DNA of 43,300 nt. Source: Gemmatimonadaceae bacterium. Its GTDB lineage: Bacteria > Gemmatimonadota > Gemmatimonadetes > Gemmatimonadales > Gemmatimonadaceae. Positions 19,401 to 27,189 of this stretch are shown here, piece after piece. The stretch is taken from contig JACCWE010000140.1 of assembly GCA_013697785.1 (NCBI GenBank), positions 1 through 43,300 on the forward strand. Direction: 5' to 3'. Positions within the stretch are counted from its first letter, which is position 1. Each line of letters begins with the position of its first letter. The notes below the pieces were generated by a model that saw nothing but the letters and a program-made list of their open reading frames with translations, was not told where the DNA came from and ran no database searches. The translations under genes and the position numbers were made by a program.

Positions 19401-20582
19401 TCAGCCGCGCAGCGCCTGATCGAGATCGGCGATAATGTCGTCGGGATCCTCGATTCCCACGCTGATGCGAAGGAAGCCGTCGGGGACGCCGAGCTTGGTG
19501 CGCTCGTCGAGGGAGAGATGCTCGTGCGACGAGAAGCGCGGCTCCGACACCAGCGTGTCGAGGCCGCCGAGACTCGGCGCGTGCGTGATGAGCTCGAGCC
19601 TCCGAATCACCTTCGTCATCGCGTCGCCGCCATCGCGGTGCACGATGGCCATCATCGCGCCGAAGCCATCCAGCGTCGCGAGCGCGGTCTCGTGATCGGG
19701 ATGATCGGGCAGTCCGGGGTAGAGCACCGCGGCGAGCTCGGGGCGCGTAGCGCACCAGAGCGCTAAGCGCATCGTGTTGTCGGTCGCGCGCTTCACGCGC
19801 ACGTCGAGCGTCTTGAGTCCGCGCTCGAGGAGCCAGCATGAGAATGGATCGGGTGCCTGACCCCACACGGTCATCTTGCGGCGCACCTCCTCGATGTACG
19901 TCGAGGTGCCGAGCACCGCGCCGGCGATCACATCGTGATGGCCGTTGAGGAATTTCGTGGCCGAGTGGATGACGACGTCGGCGCCGTGCTCGAGGGGGCG
20001 GAAGGCGATTGGCGTCGCGAACGTCGAGTCGACGACGAGCGCGAGCCCCAGCTCCTTCGCGAGTGCGGTGATCGGCTTCAGATCGAGCACGCGGCAGGTC
20101 GGATTGACGGGCGACTCGACGAAGATCGCACGCGTGTTCTTACGCAGATGCTTTCGCCAGCCGCGCGACTCGGTCGGATCGACGAGCGTGCACTGGATCC
20201 CCATTCCCGGGAGCTCCTTCGACACGAAGTCGTGCGACCCACCGTAGATCCAGCTGCTCGCGAGCAGGTGGTCGCCCGAGCGGAGCAGCGCGAGGAGCGC
20301 GCACGCCGTAGCTCCCTGGCCGCTCGCGAGCACCAGTCCCGCTTCCGCGCCCTCGAGCAGCGCGAGGCGCTTCTGCACGATCTCCGCGTTCGGATTGTTC
20401 CCGTAGCGCGGATAGCGCATCCCCGCGCCCGTGCCGACTTCCTGCACGAAGTTGACACTCTGATAGATCGGGGAGCCGACTGGCTCGCCCGTCTCGTGCG
20501 AGTCACGCCCGCCGTGCACGGCGAGCGTCGCCAGCGACGGCACGGCCTGCGTCTTCGAAGGCTTGCTGCTGCTCGTTGTCAC
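19401..20582 (-). CDS. Cys/Met-metabolism PLP-dependent enzyme (cystathionine synthase/lyase type)
   Basis: The 393-residue protein belongs to the cystathionine gamma-synthase-like family of fold-type I PLP enzymes. Visible motifs are the N-terminal TLAVHGGRD, the substrate region PIYQSVNF, MRYPRYGNNPN, the PLP-ring stretch ASGQGATA, DSTFATPIAFRPLEHGAD and the PLP-lysine motif HSATKFLNGHHDVIAG. The C-terminal EPRFSSHEHLSLDERTKLGV ... LRISVGIEDPDD is typical. Sequence alone does not separate cystathionine gamma-synthase, gamma- or beta-lyase, or O-acylhomoserine sulfhydrylase. The GTG start has GGAG seven bases upstream and lies 16 bases after the preceding gene, so it is probably the last gene of the long lepA operon. 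Confidence 0.9.
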   Translation of the reverse strand: MTTSSSKPSKTQAVPSLATLAVHGGRDSHETGEPVGSPIYQSVNFVQEVGTGAGMRYPRYGNNPNAEIVQKRLALLEGAEAGLVLASGQGATACALLALLRSGDHLLASSWIYGGSHDFVSKELPGMGIQCTLVDPTESRGWRKHLRKNTRAIFVESPVNPTCRVLDLKPITALAKELGLALVVDSTFATPIAFRPLEHGADVVIHSATKFLNGHHDVIAGAVLGTSTYIEEVRRKMTVWGQAPDPFSCWLLERGLKTLDVRVKRATDNTMRLALWCATRPELAAVLYPGLPDHPDHETALATLDGFGAMMAIVHRDGGDAMTKVIRRLELITHAPSLGGLDTLVSEPRFSSHEHLSLDERTKLGVPDGFLRISVGIEDPDDIIADLDQALRG

Positions 20583-20598: not shown

Positions 20599-20901
20599 CT
20601 AGACGAGACCTGGATTGCGCGGGGTGCCGTATGCCGCCTTCACGAGCGTGATGATCTCCGATGGCGACGCGCCGGCGACGTCGCGCAATATGACATCGCC
20701 GCGCGGCAGCGTGTCATCGACGCGCACCGTCGCGAGCTCCTGCCGCCGCGGGCCGTGAACCCAGACGAGCTCTCCGTCCTCGATCAGCCGCATGCGCGCG
20801 TCGTCCGCACGCATCCGCACCTCCGTTCCGCGCTCGGCGTCGCCGGCGCGCGTCGAGATCAGCCGCGCGACGCGGAGCGGGGCGTTGTGCTGGCCACTCA
20901 C
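20599..20901 (-). CDS. 100-residue hypothetical protein, possible molybdopterin-dinucleotide-binding-like barrel
   Basis: The GTG start overlaps the stop of the upstream STAS gene (GTGA) and gives a 100-residue product. It has beta-strand-like stretches: GTEVRMRADDARMRL, GELVWVHGPRRQELATVRVDD and LPRGDVILRDVAGASPSE. The pattern of a GELVWV turn followed by a valine-rich strand and PRGDV recalls the C-terminal dinucleotide-binding barrel of molybdopterin oxidoreductases, but the resemblance is loose and no oxidoreductase is nearby. It may be a stand-alone double-psi barrel. Coding is supported by the overlaps on both sides of the run and by the composition; the function is unknown. Confidence 0.7.
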   Translation of the reverse strand: MSGQHNAPLRVARLISTRAGDAERGTEVRMRADDARMRLIEDGELVWVHGPRRQELATVRVDDTLPRGDVILRDVAGASPSEIITLVKAAYGTPRNPGLV

Positions 20902-21452
20902 GTCACTGCGCCTACAACTACGTAGCCGCCGTCGAGCTCCATGGCGAGCCGGCGCCGGCACAGCGCGCCGAGCACGCGCTCGACCTGCTCCGGCGCGATT
21001 CCCGCCTCGCGCGCGAGATCCACCGCCATCGCGCGGCCGAGTCGCGACATGGCCTCCCACGCGCGGCGCTCGGGATCCTCTATCGTTCCGACGAGCACCA
21101 CCGTGCCATCCTCCGCCTGCGCCACGATCGCGAGGTTGTGCCGCTCGAGCACGGTCTCGATCGCATCGAGATGCGAATCGCTCACGCCGCGGAAGAGGAA
21201 GTACGCATCGCGCGGCGCCGATGCTTCGGCGTAGCGCATGAGCAGCTTCGCGACGATCTCGTCCGCACACGAATAGTCGAGCAACCCGACGTGCGAGAAG
21301 TCGATGACGGTGAGCGAGCGGTCGCCGAGCTCTGAAAGCTGTTTCTCGATTCCGTCGCGAACGGCGGCGCCGGTGGGGCGCGTCACCAGATCGGAATAGA
21401 GATCGCACACGGTGCGGCGAAGCACGGTGCTGAGGTCGATGTGATTGATCAC
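20898..21452 (-). CDS. STAS-like (DUF4325-type) protein with C-terminal winged helix
   Basis: The 184-residue protein has an N-terminal STAS-like fold (about 25-122). The core LTVIDFSHVGLLDYSCADEI at 47-66 resembles anti-sigma-factor-antagonist proteins, with Ser61 where such proteins carry the phosphorylated Ser/Thr. Residues about 128-180 look like a winged helix (AVDLAREAGIAPEQVERVLG, then a basic RRRLAMELDGGYVVVG wing), suggesting DNA binding or protein contact. The start overlaps the stop of the GHKL ATPase by four bases (ATGA). STAS-like/ATPase pairs are known as partner-switching modules; the added winged helix could link the switch directly to DNA. This role is inference. Confidence 0.8.
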   Translation of the reverse strand: MINHIDLSTVLRRTVCDLYSDLVTRPTGAAVRDGIEKQLSELGDRSLTVIDFSHVGLLDYSCADEIVAKLLMRYAEASAPRDAYFLFRGVSDSHLDAIETVLERHNLAIVAQAEDGTVVLVGTIEDPERRAWEAMSRLGRAMAVDLAREAGIAPEQVERVLGALCRRRLAMELDGGYVVVGAVT

Positions 21453-22336
21453 CGGTCGGTAATCCGCTCCGGTATGGTTATCTGCATCTGTGCACCTGGA
21501 AACGGCGGAAGCTTCTCTTCGAGCGGGACATCTTCATCCCAGCTCGGTACGATTGCGATTCGAGCGGTGCCGGAGCGAACGGAGAGCTTGCCGTCCCACC
21601 GGCCGATGTAGCGACGGACGCCGGCGAGTCCCTGCCCGCGTCCCGGATCACGAAAACGGCTCACGCCGCGAATGACGGCCTCTTCGAGCGCCATCCCATC
21701 GTCCCAGCGATCGCTCATGCGCCGGCCCTGCGCGCTCTCGAGCGATTGCCGGAAGCCGACGCCGGCATCGCACACGGCGATGACTACGACGCGGCGGCCC
21801 AGCCGCTTCTGCCAGCGATACGTCTGCACGGCGACCCATCCGCCACGGCCCGCGTGCTCGACGATGTTCTGGCATGCCTCACTCAGCGTCATCGCGAAAC
21901 CCATCGTGGCCTTCGCGTCGATGTTGAGCTCCTTCACGAGAATCGATGCCGACTTCTGCTGGATGCGTCCGACGACCTCGTGCACGTCCTCGCTCTTGGC
22001 GACGGAGGTGATCTCGAGAAGGACGTCGGACTCACCGCTTGCGCGCGCACGATGCACGGCGCCGTGCATCTCGAACAGATCCTCGGCGTGCTTGAAGAAT
22101 CCGGTGCGTGCCCAGTACGAGCCGGTCTCCTCGGACTCCGGAGAGACGAGCGCCGGCTTCTCCGCGCGCGTCTGCGCGACGGTAAGAAGCGCAGTGAGCC
22201 CGTACGGCGACGCCCATCTCGTGTGCCGGCCATCGAGCAGGACCTTCTCGTCGATGGGGATCGGCGCGAGTTGCTCGAGCACGGTTTCGAATGTGCGTTC
22301 GTCGAGCGACGGCGGAAGATTGATGACCGTTGTCAT
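21449..22336 (-). CDS. STAS-like domain fused to GHKL ATPase (anti-sigma-kinase-like)
   Basis: The 295-residue protein has a STAS-like N-terminus (about 1-100; TRWASPYGLTALLTV at 39-53). A GHKL ATPase of the anti-sigma/histidine-kinase-like type follows (about 118-292). Its ATP-site motifs are LSEACQNIVEHAG (N-box, E153/N157/H161), VCDAGVGF (G1, D190) and GRGQGLAGVRRY (G2, 232-243). There is no dimerisation/phospho-His domain, so it is not a classical histidine kinase. Such ATPases phosphorylate or sequester partners in sigma-factor partner switching. The start overlaps the PfkB stop and the stop overlaps the STAS-winged-helix gene, both by ATGA. No sigma factor or SpoIIE-type phosphatase is in the operon. 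Confidence 0.85.
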   Translation of the reverse strand: MTTVINLPPSLDERTFETVLEQLAPIPIDEKVLLDGRHTRWASPYGLTALLTVAQTRAEKPALVSPESEETGSYWARTGFFKHAEDLFEMHGAVHRARASGESDVLLEITSVAKSEDVHEVVGRIQQKSASILVKELNIDAKATMGFAMTLSEACQNIVEHAGRGGWVAVQTYRWQKRLGRRVVVIAVCDAGVGFRQSLESAQGRRMSDRWDDGMALEEAVIRGVSRFRDPGRGQGLAGVRRYIGRWDGKLSVRSGTARIAIVPSWDEDVPLEEKLPPFPGAQMQITIPERITDR

Positions 22337-23304
22337 TGTGTGATCAGCTCCCCGCGTAGATGACGGGTGAGTCCCGATGCTCCGCGAAACATGACGTTGC
22401 GCGCGGCCGCGCCGTGCGCCGCACGCATCGCGACAGTGATGTCCTCACCGGCGAGCAGCCGCGAGAAGAACGTCGCGCCCCAGACGTCGCCGCATCCCGT
22501 AGGATCGCCGCTGTCGAACGAAATGGGCGCGGGCACGAGCGCGGTGCGCAGCGGGCCGACGTCGATGGCGGAGGAGGTCGCGCGCAGATCCGCGAGCGAG
22601 TCGAATCCCGGCGCCGCGAAATAGACCGCGCCGCGCGAGCCGAGCGTGACGGTGAGACAGCGCACGCCGGCCATCATCGCGGTTGCGGCCAGCTCCATCG
22701 GATCGTGCGCGACCGTCGTCACCTCATCCTCGTTCATCTGAAGCAGATCGAAGCAGCGACACCACTGGTCGATGTTCGGTAGCGGCTGCAGCACGCGCCA
22801 TCCATCGGGCTGCACGGCGTGCACTTTCATGTGCAGGTCGCAGTAGATCGGCCCTGAAAAGTTCTGGCGTATCAGCTGACACGTCTCGAGGTCGAGCTCC
22901 CAGCCGCTCATGAAGTTGATGTACAGCGCGTCGAGCTCGCGTAGCAGCGGCTTGAGGCCGAGCCAGCTCCACCCCGGCAGCCCTCCCGTCAGCTTCTCCG
23001 CGCGGCGCTCGCTCGTCTCGTAGCGCAGCTCGACGCGATTGTTCGGATACGGAACTCCGATCAACGCGGCATCGGGCGCGACGTGCGAGAGCGTCGAGAT
23101 GAACTCGCGCGCACGCGGTGCGAGGTCGTCGCCGACCTTCACGAGCGGCACGATCTCCCAGTCATTGGCGAGGCTCGCGTCGAGCGCGCTGAGCGCGTAC
23201 GCGCATCCGCCCCACTCGGTGACGGGCTCGGAGCGCGGATCGCGTCCGTAGATCGTGTCCCACACGAAGGTGCTGATGACGCCGAGTCGCTTGCGCCGCA
23301 TCAT
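22333..23304 (-). CDS. PfkB-family carbohydrate/nucleoside kinase
   Basis: The 323-residue protein belongs to the ribokinase/PfkB fold, which phosphorylates sugars or nucleosides. The C-terminal signature reads SFDSGDPTGCGDVWGATFF, with the catalytic Asp in GCGD and the anion hole around PTGCG. Earlier, WGGCAYALSALDASL is the substrate-side Gly motif. The family norm is DTTGAGD; the Pro, Cys and Trp here are unusual, so the substrate is uncertain. The ATG at 23304 overlaps the ROK stop (TGATGATG; a second ATG follows in frame). The frame continues 30 codons upstream into the ROK gene with arginine-rich sequence and was not used. Two sugar kinases side by side suggest joint use of a sugar, perhaps for cell-surface glycans made by the GT9 gene's pathway. 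Confidence 0.88.
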   Translation of the reverse strand: MMRRKRLGVISTFVWDTIYGRDPRSEPVTEWGGCAYALSALDASLANDWEIVPLVKVGDDLAPRAREFISTLSHVAPDAALIGVPYPNNRVELRYETSERRAEKLTGGLPGWSWLGLKPLLRELDALYINFMSGWELDLETCQLIRQNFSGPIYCDLHMKVHAVQPDGWRVLQPLPNIDQWCRCFDLLQMNEDEVTTVAHDPMELAATAMMAGVRCLTVTLGSRGAVYFAAPGFDSLADLRATSSAIDVGPLRTALVPAPISFDSGDPTGCGDVWGATFFSRLLAGEDITVAMRAAHGAAARNVMFRGASGLTRHLRGELITQ

Positions 23305-24293
23305 CAGACCGCTCCGAGCTTTTGCTGCTTGAACGTCGCGACGGCGCCGACCATGCCGGCGCTCGAACGCAACGTCCCCGCGACGATGCGGCACGCATCC
23401 ACCGCCGGCCGAAAGGCGCGACGCTTCACCTCAGCGCGCAGCGGCTCGAACAGCGGCTCGCCCGCCTCCGTCACGCCACCGGTTATGACGACGACATCCG
23501 GATTCAGGATGTTGAGGAGATTGCCGATGCCGGTGCCCAGAAAGCGCGCGGTGTCGCGCACGACTTCGAGCGCGAGCGCGTCGCCCTCGTTCGCGGCGGC
23601 GTAGATCGTCGCGGCAGTGAGCTCATCCAGGCGGCCGTCGACCATGCGCCGGAGCGTCGACTCCTCGTCGCGCTCGAGCGCCTCGCGCGCGCGAAGCGCA
23701 ATCGCCGGTCCGGACGCATAGGCCTCGAGGCAGCCGTAGTTGCCACAGCGGCAGTATCGCCCTGTTGAATCGATGGTCGTGTGCCCGATTTCGCCCGCGA
23801 CATCCGACGAGCCGTGATAGAGCACACCGTTCATAATGATGCCGCCGCCGATGCCGGTGCCGATCGTGATTCCGACGACGTTCTTCGCACCCTGCGCCGC
23901 GCCCTTCCACCACTCGCCCATCGTCGCGCAATTCGCGTCGTTGTCGAGTGCGACGGGAAGCCCGACTCGCTTCGAGATCGAGTCGCGGAGCGGGAAGTCG
24001 CGCCATCCGAGATTCGGCGCGACGACGACCATGCCGCGCTCGCGATCGAGCGGGCCCGGCGCGCCGACACCGACGCCGAGGAAGTCGCCCTTCTTCGCCT
24101 TCTCACTCGCGGTGACGTCGCCGATGACATCGCCTACCATCGCCGCGATGCGATTGACGACCGCCTCCGCGCCCTGTTCGGCGTGCGTCGATGCCTGGCG
24201 CACGGCGAGCTGGCGGCTCCCGTCCTCGGGCATCGCACCGACGACGATGTTCGTGCCGCCGAGATCGACGCCGACGATAAAGCGTTCACTCAC
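23304..24293 (-). CDS. ROK-family sugar kinase (glucokinase-like)
   Basis: The 329-residue product has the ROK layout: ATP-binding VDLGGTNIVVG at the N-terminus, GVGAPGPLDRERG, catalytic Asp in LDNDANCA, the phosphate loop ITIGTGIGGGII, the HExGH-like GEIGHTTI and the zinc motif CRCGNYGCLEAYASG. ROK enzymes phosphorylate glucose, N-acetylmannosamine and related hexoses. With no N-terminal helix-turn-helix it is a kinase and not a ROK repressor. The GTG at 24293 lies 26 bases after the glycosyltransferase stop and its own stop overlaps the PfkB start. Glucokinase is the most likely activity, but the hexose is not settled by sequence. Confidence 0.93.
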   Translation of the reverse strand: MSERFIVGVDLGGTNIVVGAMPEDGSRQLAVRQASTHAEQGAEAVVNRIAAMVGDVIGDVTASEKAKKGDFLGVGVGAPGPLDRERGMVVVAPNLGWRDFPLRDSISKRVGLPVALDNDANCATMGEWWKGAAQGAKNVVGITIGTGIGGGIIMNGVLYHGSSDVAGEIGHTTIDSTGRYCRCGNYGCLEAYASGPAIALRAREALERDEESTLRRMVDGRLDELTAATIYAAANEGDALALEVVRDTARFLGTGIGNLLNILNPDVVVITGGVTEAGEPLFEPLRAEVKRRAFRPAVDACRIVAGTLRSSAGMVGAVATFKQQKLGAV

Positions 24294-24319: not shown

Positions 24320-25390
24320 TTAGCAAGCACTGAGCACCTCGTCCACCGCGAGCGCGACCGCATCAACCCCGAGCTCGCGCATGCAGCGCCAGTGCCCGAG
24401 GGGACAGTGCGGTGGGCCGTGATGATGGCAGGGGCGGCAGGCAAGTGCGTCGATTCCGAGGGAGATGGAGTGAGGAGCCAGCGGACCGAAGCCAAAATCT
24501 TCGACCGTCGGCCCAAAAATAGTGACTGTCGGCGTTCCCATGGCCGAAGCCAGATGCTGCGGTGCGGAGTCGTTAGTAACCATCAACTTCACACGTCCGA
24601 TCAACTCGGCTGAGGCAAGCAACGACAACGAAGCCGTGCCGTCAACCACCCCTTGCGCCCCGGAAAAATTCGCGATAGATGCGGCCTCGGAACGGTCCCC
24701 CAGGCCACCGATGATCGCGATTCTGAAGCGCGTGGCGAGTGCCTTCGCAAGCTCGGCGTAGTAGGGCCAGCGCTTCGTCGCCCACACGCTTCCGGGCGCA
24801 AGCGCGATCAGCTCGCGATCGTCGCGCTCGCCGCCGAGCAGCGCGTCGACGGCGGCTCGCTCCGCATCGCCAGGGTAGAGCCGCGGGGCTGGAACTTCGC
24901 GAGTGTCGAGCGCGTCCACCTTCGCACCGGCGTCGCGATCCGGAAACGCCAGCCGCCACAGTCGTTCCGCATGATGCCTGTCCTCGCGATACGGCACGCG
25001 CTTCGAGTACAGCGTCTGACCGGCCGACCCCTCGAAGCCGACGCGCTCCGTGTAGCCGGCCGCGAGCGCGAGCGCGCCGCTACGCACCGAGCGCTGCGCG
25101 AGATACGCGACGGCGGGCGCTGCACCCTCGCGCGGCTCCGGCGCGCGCAGCTGCTGCGCGAGGCGACGAAAGCCGCGCAGGCCGCCGTCGGCGCCCCGCT
25201 TGTCGTACACGAAGAGCTCGTTGATGTCCGGATTGCGGGCGAGCAGCGGCGCCGATGCCGGAGTCACCACCACATTCACCGGGCCGCGCTTTGCGAGCTC
25301 GGTGATGAGCGGGGTGGTGAGAACGGTGTCGCCGAGGAAGCTGGTCTGCACGACCAGCTGATGTGTGCCCGTCGCAGCAGCGAGGGGCAT
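24320..25390 (-). CDS. Glycosyltransferase family 9 (heptosyltransferase-like)
   Basis: The 356-residue protein starts [29 protein letters not shown], quoted across its conserved positions: the FLGD motif is the family 9 mark for ADP-heptose:LPS transferases. Later motifs are IALAPGSVWATKRWP (the GSxxxxKRWP nucleotide-sugar site), IIGGLGD and VTNDSAPQHLASAMGTPTVTIFGPT. A cysteine/histidine-rich tail (ACRPCHHHGPPHCPLGHWRC) is common in WaaF/RfaF relatives. It is a cytoplasmic or peripheral enzyme for LPS-core-like glycan assembly, which implies an outer membrane. The ATG at 25390 shares one base with the lepA stop (TGATG). The longer frame (44 codons) lies inside lepA and was rejected. Confidence 0.9.
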   Translation of the reverse strand: MPLAAATGTHQLVVQTSFLGDTVLTTPLITELAKRGPVNVVVTPASAPLLARNPDINELFVYDKRGADGGLRGFRRLAQQLRAPEPREGAAPAVAYLAQRSVRSGALALAAGYTERVGFEGSAGQTLYSKRVPYREDRHHAERLWRLAFPDRDAGAKVDALDTREVPAPRLYPGDAERAAVDALLGGERDDRELIALAPGSVWATKRWPYYAELAKALATRFRIAIIGGLGDRSEAASIANFSGAQGVVDGTASLSLLASAELIGRVKLMVTNDSAPQHLASAMGTPTVTIFGPTVEDFGFGPLAPHSISLGIDALACRPCHHHGPPHCPLGHWRCMRELGVDAVALAVDEVLSAC

Positions 25391-27189
25391 CAATCCACCT
25401 GCAGCACGGCGAGAAATGCTTCTTGCGGTATCTCCACGGAGCCGACCTGCTTCATGCGCTTCTTTCCTTCCTTCTGCTTCTCGAGCAGTTTGCGCTTGCG
25501 CGAGATGTCGCCGCCATAGCACTTCGCCAGTACGTCCTTGCGAAGCGCCTTCACCGAGCTGCGCGCGATGATCTTGTTTCCGATCGCCGCCTGGATTGCG
25601 ACCTCGAACAGCTGTCGCGGAATCAGCTCCTTGAGCTTGTCCGCGATCTTGCGCCCCCAGTCGTACGACTTGTCGCGATGGATGATCACGGAGAAGGCGT
25701 CGATAGGATCGCCGTTGATCAACATCTCGAGCTTGACGAGGTCACTCGTGCGATAGTCGAGCATGTCGTAGTCCAGACTCGCATACCCTCGGCTTATCGT
25801 CTTCAGCTTGTCGAAGAAATCGAGGATGATCTCGCCGAGCGGAAACTCGAAGTCGAACTCGACACGCGCCGTGTCGAGGTAGGACATGTTCTTGTAGACG
25901 CCACGGCGCTCGGTCGCGAGCGTCATGATCGGCCCGATGTATTCCGACGGTGCCATGATGCGCGCCTTCACGAATGGCTCCTCGATCTTCGAGATCGTTC
26001 CGGGGTCGGGGAGCTTGGCCGGGCTCTCGAGCAGCTCCATCGTCCCGTCGGTGCGCCAGACGTGATACTCCACACTCGGCACCGTCGTGACGAGATCGAG
26101 ATCGAACTCGCGCTCGAGTCGCTCCTGCACGATCTCCATGTGCAGCAGTCCGAGGAAGCCGCAGCGGAAGCCGAAGCCGAGCGCGGTCGACGTCTCGGGC
26201 TCGTAGTTCAGCGAAGCATCGTTGAGCTGGAGCTTCTCGAGCGCGTCGCGAAGACCCTCGTACTGCGTGGTATCCGTCGGGTACAGCCCCGAGAACACCA
26301 TCGAGTGCACGTCCTTGTAGCCGGGAAGCGGCTCGACGTCGGGCTTCGACGCATCGAACACCGTGTCGCCGGCGCGCGTCTCCTTCACCGTGCGGACGTT
26401 CGCGACGACGAAGCCGACCTCGCCGGGCCCGAGCGACTCGGTCTCGACCTGACGCAACTGGTTGTAGCCGACCTGCGCGACCTCGTACGACAGCCCCGAG
26501 CCGGCGGCGAATCGAATGTGCATCCCGGGCTTGAGCGTGCCATCGATGACGCGCACGCTCGGCACGGCGCCTCTGTACCGGTCGTAATACGAGTCATAGA
26601 TGAGCGCGCGGAGCGGCGCATCGGCGTCGCCGACCGGGGCAGGTACGCGGCGCACGATCGCTTCGAGGAGCTCGGGGATGCCGAATCCCTCCTTGGCGCT
26701 CACGAGAAGAATGTCGTCCTTGTCGGCGCCGATGAGCTCGTGGAGCTCCTCCTTCCGGCGCTCCGGCTCGGCGCCAGGGAGATCGATCTTGTTCAGGATC
26801 GGGATGATCTCGAGCCCCGCATCGAGCGCGAGGAAGAGATTCGAGAGCGTCTGCGCCTGGATTCCCTGCGATGCGTCGACGACGAGGATCGCGCCCTCGC
26901 ACGCGGCGAGCGAGCGCGAGACCTCGTACGTGAAGTCGACGTGCCCCGGCGTGTCGATGAGGTTGAACTCGTACGCCTCGCCGTCCTTCGCGTTGTACGT
27001 CATGCGGACGGCGTTGAGCTTGATCGTGATGCCGCGCTCGCGCTCGAGATCCAGCGTGTCGAGCACCTGCGCCTTCATCTCCCGCTTCTGCAGCATACCC
27101 GTGGCTTCGATCAACCTGTCGGCGAGCGTCGACTTGCCGTGGTCGATGTGCGCGACGATGCAGAAATTGCGGATGTGATCGAGCTTCAA
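25390..27189 (-). CDS. lepA: Elongation factor 4 (LepA/EF4)
   Basis: LepA is a ribosome-associated GTPase that affects elongation and 30S assembly. The 599-residue protein has G1 [10 protein letters not shown], switch [11 protein letters not shown]3 DTPGHVDF, G4 NKIDLP and G5 VSAKEG. The EF4-specific C-terminus includes [14 protein letters not shown] and ends [18 protein letters not shown]. The start is TTG at 27189, giving [19 protein letters not shown]; no Shine-Dalgarno is evident. A TATATT box lies about 34 bases upstream without a good -35. lepA heads the longest gene run of the window. Its overlap with the glycosyltransferase gene means translation of the downstream genes may depend on it. 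Confidence 0.97.

Follow-up and report, generated by a model that had tools for sequence, protein, structure and literature searches.

Two adjacent genes in a Gemmatimonadaceae genome encode a kinase, with a STAS-like and a GHKL ATPase domain, and a STAS-winged-helix protein, and both are remote homologues of the phage-defence regulators CapK and CapS. We consider it reasonably probable (about 0.6) that they form a CapKS-like kinase-repressor switch that has turned into a vertically inherited, single-copy core part of the class Gemmatimonadetes. The observations behind this reading are the folds of both proteins, the ATPase motifs of the kinase, a serine (Ser61) at the position of the CapS phosphosite, near-obligate pairing of the two genes, their position in a conserved operon, and the remote homology to CapK and CapS. 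The window referred to below is the whole stretch of DNA that was analysed, 43,300 nucleotides in length.

Operon context and distribution across the phylum

Both reading frames were found at the coordinates of the original prediction, on the minus strand (Table 1), and the run is indeed led by lepA, with the GT9, ROK and PfkB genes preceding the pair. The kinase and STAS genes overlap as predicted, although the shared letters are GTGA rather than ATGA; the ATGA overlap is that of the PfkB and kinase genes (22333–22336), and another GTGA joins the STAS gene to the small gene that follows. The pair had been described as lying between a PfkB kinase and an unknown of 100 residues. The former is correct, but the latter matches the molybdopterin-dinucleotide-binding domain PF01568 in Pfam (E = 2.7e-7), and it is found between the pair and the Cys/Met-metabolism enzyme only in loci of family f1. 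Beyond that enzyme, the same run continues in the window with FtsE, FtsX and an M23 peptidase. The window also contains a PP2C-type Ser/Thr phosphatase gene (PF13672; 5043–5882(+)) some 15 kb from the pair.

Table 1. Coordinates of the pair and its neighbouring genes within the window
Feature	Position	Strand	Remarks
lepA (EF4)	25390..27189	(-)	First gene of the run
Glycosyltransferase family 9 (GT9) protein	24320..25522	(-)	Frequent neighbour; start codon uncertain
ROK-family glucokinase-type kinase	23304..24293	(-)	TIGR00744 above cut-off; conserved neighbour
PfkB-family sugar kinase	22333..23304	(-)	Upstream neighbour kept through the class; shares ATGA with the kinase gene
CapK-like kinase gene	21449..22336	(-)	295 aa; STAS-like domain aa 1 to about 95, GHKL ATPase aa about 105–290
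Kinase/STAS stop/start overlap	21449..21452	(-)	GTGA, coupling both genes
CapS-like gene	20898..21452	(-)	184 aa; DUF4325-type STAS aa about 12–124, winged helix aa about 125–180
Ser61 codon	21270..21272	(-)	Aligns with the CapS phosphosite Ser54; position counted from the 21452 start
Protein of ~100 aa	20599..20901	(-)	Molydop_binding (PF01568) match; GTGA overlap with the STAS gene
Cys/Met-metabolism PLP enzyme	19401..20582	(-)	Downstream neighbour kept through most of the class

In 34 regions drawn from eight families, the two genes keep one order and share a strand, and they are adjacent except where a few regions have inserts. Nearly all of these regions have lepA, ROK and PfkB genes upstream, and most have the Cys/Met enzyme downstream. 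The order and orientation of the pair recur in 79 of 80 GTDB loci (the best 80 of 330 relatives). A search for the pair and its neighbours in relatives had been put forward as a check on the original prediction, and both are kept in these two sets of loci. The pair is fixed in a lepA-(GT9)-ROK-PfkB-pair-Cys/Met-lyase operon, and its presence and adjacency across the class are far beyond chance. Local variants include family f6, where a cyclophilin-type prolyl isomerase gene sits between the kinase and STAS genes (e.g., L113, 10346–10819(+)), and families f7 and f9, where a NifU-like gene lies downstream of the pair.

Our survey sampled 295 genomes of the phylum, of which 283 carry the kinase and 284 the STAS protein. 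Both genes are present in 282 genomes and neither in 10; two of the three discordant cases fall at contig ends, the kinase gene running off the contig in G229 and the STAS gene standing at a contig start in G256. Nearly all relatives have one copy of the STAS gene, and the genome of the window has a single kinase copy. The pair was absent in four genomes of family f10 (the one other class sampled), and it is missing from a reduced genome (G245) that keeps lepA-PfkB. We infer that the class carrying the pair is Gemmatimonadetes, of which the pair is a single-copy, near-universal, vertically inherited core part. Mirror-tree correlations of 0.58 between the GHKL and STAS proteins, 0.65 between GHKL and LepA, and 0.61 between STAS and LepA show shared descent rather than specific co-evolution. 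One genome (G069) has a second, diverged STAS-GHKL-like paralogue on contig C35 (L122, 8932–9756(-)), convergent to an HTH-ROK transcriptional repressor gene.

When a wider collection was scanned with an alignment restricted to the class, the best 80 of 330 relatives all came from Gemmatimonadota or from unnamed or misnamed metagenome-assembled genomes (MAGs). A contig labelled Gammaproteobacteria (L200; JAHEKL010000018.1) carries a class-type pair with 59% kinase identity, and is probably a mislabelled or contaminated MAG. An alignment that mixed kinases from plasmids and from the class offered no stretch of sufficient conservation for such a scan, and the breadth of the pair beyond the class is judged from plasmid records only.

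Family f8, represented by two genomes, runs from lepA-(GT9)-ROK-PfkB directly into the Cys/Met enzyme, with the pair cleanly missing. A lepA tree rooted with the other class places f8 outside a group formed by all remaining families (support 99/97). As f8 keeps the operon without the pair, the two genes came in or dropped out together. Most simply, the operon predates the pair, whose two genes were either acquired jointly in a single event or jointly lost in f8. This bears on the predicted input. The original prediction had the switch respond to sugar phosphorylation, which would be sensed via the adjacent ROK and PfkB kinases or their products. What speaks for this is gene position: the pair is linked to both genes through the class, and shares a four-base overlap with PfkB in the window. 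We now regard this input as improbable, as the ROK-PfkB operon stands without the switch in f8, lepA and the Cys/Met lyase are equally linked to the pair, and no sugar-binding domain was seen in either protein in Pfam searches or predicted structures.

Domain architecture and predicted folds

The kinase matches HATPase_c above the Pfam cut-off (E = 1.3e-6), while no histidine-kinase dimerisation or phosphoacceptor domain was found in the same search. Its AlphaFold model, computed from an alignment of class orthologues (pLDDT 91.9, pTM 0.90), consists of an N-terminal STAS-like domain and a GHKL domain. The GHKL part resembles CheA P4 and SiaB in the PDB, and the N-terminus resembles the STAS antagonists 1vc1 and RsbV (6m36). 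The ATPase motifs are intact (Asn157; G1 box DAGVG, 190–194; G2 box GRGQGL, 232–237), and the catalytic Asn157 is invariant in 110/110 class kinases. A PADLOC match of the kinase to DrmA was taken as generic GHKL similarity and discarded.

In Pfam, the partner protein reaches no cut-off (DUF4325, E = 0.25, and weak HTH matches); its architecture is read from its AlphaFold model, likewise built on class orthologues (pLDDT 92.2, pTM 0.86), in which a STAS fold is followed by a winged helix. The STAS part matches RsbS (6jhk; TM-score 0.62 by target) and the C-terminus matches MarR and Zalpha domains at an rmsd of about 1 Å. Foldseek searches gave no full-length match for either protein, and fold assignments were made from TM-scores, probabilities and single-domain topology, with no PDB match below E = 0.001. 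Both domain architectures of the original prediction, which had proposed structure modelling as a check, are thereby recovered: an N-terminal STAS-like part with a GHKL ATPase that lacks a phospho-His domain, and a STAS-like part with a winged helix. A predicted helix of the STAS protein starts at residue 60, beside Ser61, and Ser61 is invariant in 113/113 class STAS proteins.

The general GHKL and STAS architecture, together with very weak RsbW-like matches, also recalls the SpoIIAB-SpoIIAA and RsbW-RsbV partner switches, in which a GHKL serine kinase acts on a STAS domain and both parts share the folds described here. If the class pair worked likewise, the GHKL protein would sequester a sigma factor. 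We consider this very improbable. Those systems have a sigma factor target, a single-domain STAS protein and a PP2C phosphatase (SpoIIE/RsbU), none of which is found at this locus, where the partner bears a winged helix. Neither a sigma factor nor a SpoIIE/PP2C phosphatase was found in the conserved neighbourhood of the 34 regions and 80 GTDB loci. Separate SpoIIE-like and RsbW-like genes lie near each other elsewhere in the genome, on contig C124, and the closest relatives of the pair are CapK and CapS. The kinase model also fits the SiaB-SiaC complex of Pseudomonas (6kko), one of its best fold matches, which likewise has a GHKL-type kinase. The substrate in that complex is not known to carry a winged helix, nor its kinase a STAS domain, and the operon differs from that of the class pair.

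Relationship to CapK and CapS

Chambers et al. (2026; PMC13373217) described CapK and CapS as a switch that controls phage-defence genes in response to DNA damage. When ssDNA activates CapK, whose domain order is HTH-STAS-GHKL, this kinase phosphorylates CapS at Ser54, a strictly conserved residue where the second STAS helix begins. CapS, a STAS-winged-helix repressor, then dissociates and leaves its promoters, so that Bub, CBASS and other immune operons are derepressed (PMC13373217). Gemmatimonadota are not mentioned in the main text of that paper. As reference we used the published pair from an Enterobacter roggenkampii plasmid (WP_001567866.1/WP_001567865.1), the latter protein being named there as CapS (PMC13373217). 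In profile-profile comparisons, the CapK family matched the class kinases with E = 7e-23 (global) and 6e-19 (local), and the CapS family matched the class STAS-winged-helix proteins over both domains with E = 1.4e-13, against 0.62 for a reversed control. The class-only profile did not find the CapS structures by sequence (9z71, 9z72 and 9z73, which, from their sequences, are probably CapS), and the link therefore rests on profile-profile comparison and intermediates. In both systems a STAS-GHKL kinase gene is followed at once by a STAS-winged-helix gene, with remote homology that spans the two domains of either protein, a shared catalytic asparagine and an invariant phospho-serine: CapK Asn218 aligns with Asn157 (110/110 class and 8/8 outside sequences) and CapS Ser54 with Ser61 (113/113 and 7/7). 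The original prediction of Ser61 as the phosphorylation site thus falls exactly on the CapS phosphosite, and its proposal that a winged helix, not a sigma factor, forms the output of a two-protein switch agrees with the mechanism demonstrated experimentally for these distant homologues (PMC13373217).

Could the class pair simply be a plain CapK and CapS, sensing ssDNA or DNA damage and derepressing a defence or stress regulon? The homology and the phosphosite favour this. The class kinase lacks an N-terminal HTH and starts directly with a STAS strand, but CapK stays active without its HTH (PMC13373217), so the missing domain is not decisive. Also in favour, the class kinases have a longer basic loop with invariant Trp175 and Arg181 where CapK has its loop of ssDNA-contacting lysines. 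The aromatic residue Trp68 of CapK, which stacks on and senses ssDNA (PMC13373217), aligns in an HTH-trimmed profile alignment to a gap beside Ser10-Leu11, where there is no aromatic residue. A match of Trp68 to Trp41 in a joint MAFFT alignment, which placed the CapK HTH on the STAS domain, was judged an artefact and dropped after the trimmed alignment. Nor is the class pair found beside an immune operon: no immune genes occur among the conserved neighbours, and the metabolic lepA, ROK, PfkB and lyase genes recur throughout. Immune modules are patchy, whereas this pair is near-universal in the class and vertically inherited, with genes that often overlap. We therefore think a plain CapK and CapS rather unlikely, and the class pair is best called CapKS-like, not CapK and CapS in the strict sense. 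The kinase-STAS gene order was also observed on Nostoc, Sphingobium and Cytobacillus plasmids, beside ubiquitin-like conjugation genes (E2/ThiF/JAB, multiubiquitin and ThiF-DUF6527; L126, 5004–10038; L128, 3755–7747; L129, 3899–7732), and all three kinases are without an evident N-terminal HTH as annotated.

DNA binding by the class winged helix is plausible only, because the tested DNA-contact residues of CapS (Asn145, Lys151 and the wing GlyGly; PMC13373217) are not conserved in the class, where the Lys151 column is mostly Asp or Glu and the wing is shorter, which makes the GlyGly columns less certain. Across the class, conservation of the protein is lowest in the winged helix (1.84 bits vs. 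2.67 for the STAS part), which is slightly acidic on average and has a variable recognition helix. The winged helix is nevertheless under strong purifying selection within the genus (dN/dS 0.035–0.106; kinase 0.009–0.042). The operators of CapS are palindromes, located in the kinase-STAS junction and downstream of the STAS gene (PMC13373217). Among 73 GTDB pairs, the gap is at most 60 nt in 64 (median 28 nt) and the two genes overlap in 16, which leaves little intergenic room for an operator within the pair. Four proper CapKS loci have similarly short gaps (4–43 nt), and gap length alone is therefore weak evidence. A scan upstream of lepA yielded no convincing palindrome that could serve as an operator; a 6-base GC repeat there, in the window and a relative (G001), was not accepted as one.

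These features could reflect operators that drift along with the recognition helix, or a protein target. The latter has a precedent in VapKSC, where an HTH-less STAS-GHKL kinase is followed by a STAS protein with a conserved Ser/Thr, and VapS, a CapS-like STAS protein, binds and inhibits the protein VapC (PMC13373217). The class pair shares this arrangement of a kinase without HTH and a STAS protein with a conserved Ser/Thr, but VapS has a short C-terminal region where the class protein has its winged helix, and the third gene, vapC (a PIN nuclease), was not found in the conserved neighbourhood, which has Molydop_binding-like, Cys/Met lyase, FtsE or NifU genes instead. On such a model, Ser61 would still be phosphorylated, the winged helix would no longer bind DNA, and the protein would bind and inhibit a partner such as either of the two adjacent sugar kinases or the lyase, enzymes conserved through the class. 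We judge this unlikely. The clear winged-helix fold matching MarR and Zalpha is kept under purifying selection, an Arg167-Arg168 pair within it is common (93/113 each), and f8 has the sugar-kinase operon but not the pair.

A proposed domesticated switch and its significance

The best reading is a domesticated CapKS-like phospho-switch with a changed input. By analogy with CapKS, some signal would activate the GHKL kinase, which would bind the STAS domain of its partner and phosphorylate Ser61; the STAS-winged-helix dimer would then fall apart and leave the DNA, and its targets would be derepressed. From the differences to CapKS, the input is probably not the ssDNA signal of CapK in the same form, and the targets may span the whole operon or lie in other parts of the genome, in place of a neighbouring immune operon. 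As to history, we tentatively suggest, at rather less than even odds, that the class captured a mobile immune-type switch once and early, or keeps the housekeeping ancestor of the immune form, and that the switch was turned into a core regulator which responds to a new input other than ssDNA and controls a regulon shared by the class.

The original prediction had presented the pair as a candidate for an undescribed system. That no longer applies, as the CapK and CapS kind and its mechanism were described in 2026 (PMC13373217); what is new is a class-wide core version of the kinase-repressor pair in a metabolic operon. CapK and CapS have been described as an accessory controller of phage-defence operons, and a near-universal relative in a whole class would extend such switches to core physiology. 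The pair offers a tractable way into the domestication of a defence regulator, or the reverse, and into the range of signals that such kinases sense, and it offers a function for two conserved genes of a little-studied phylum.
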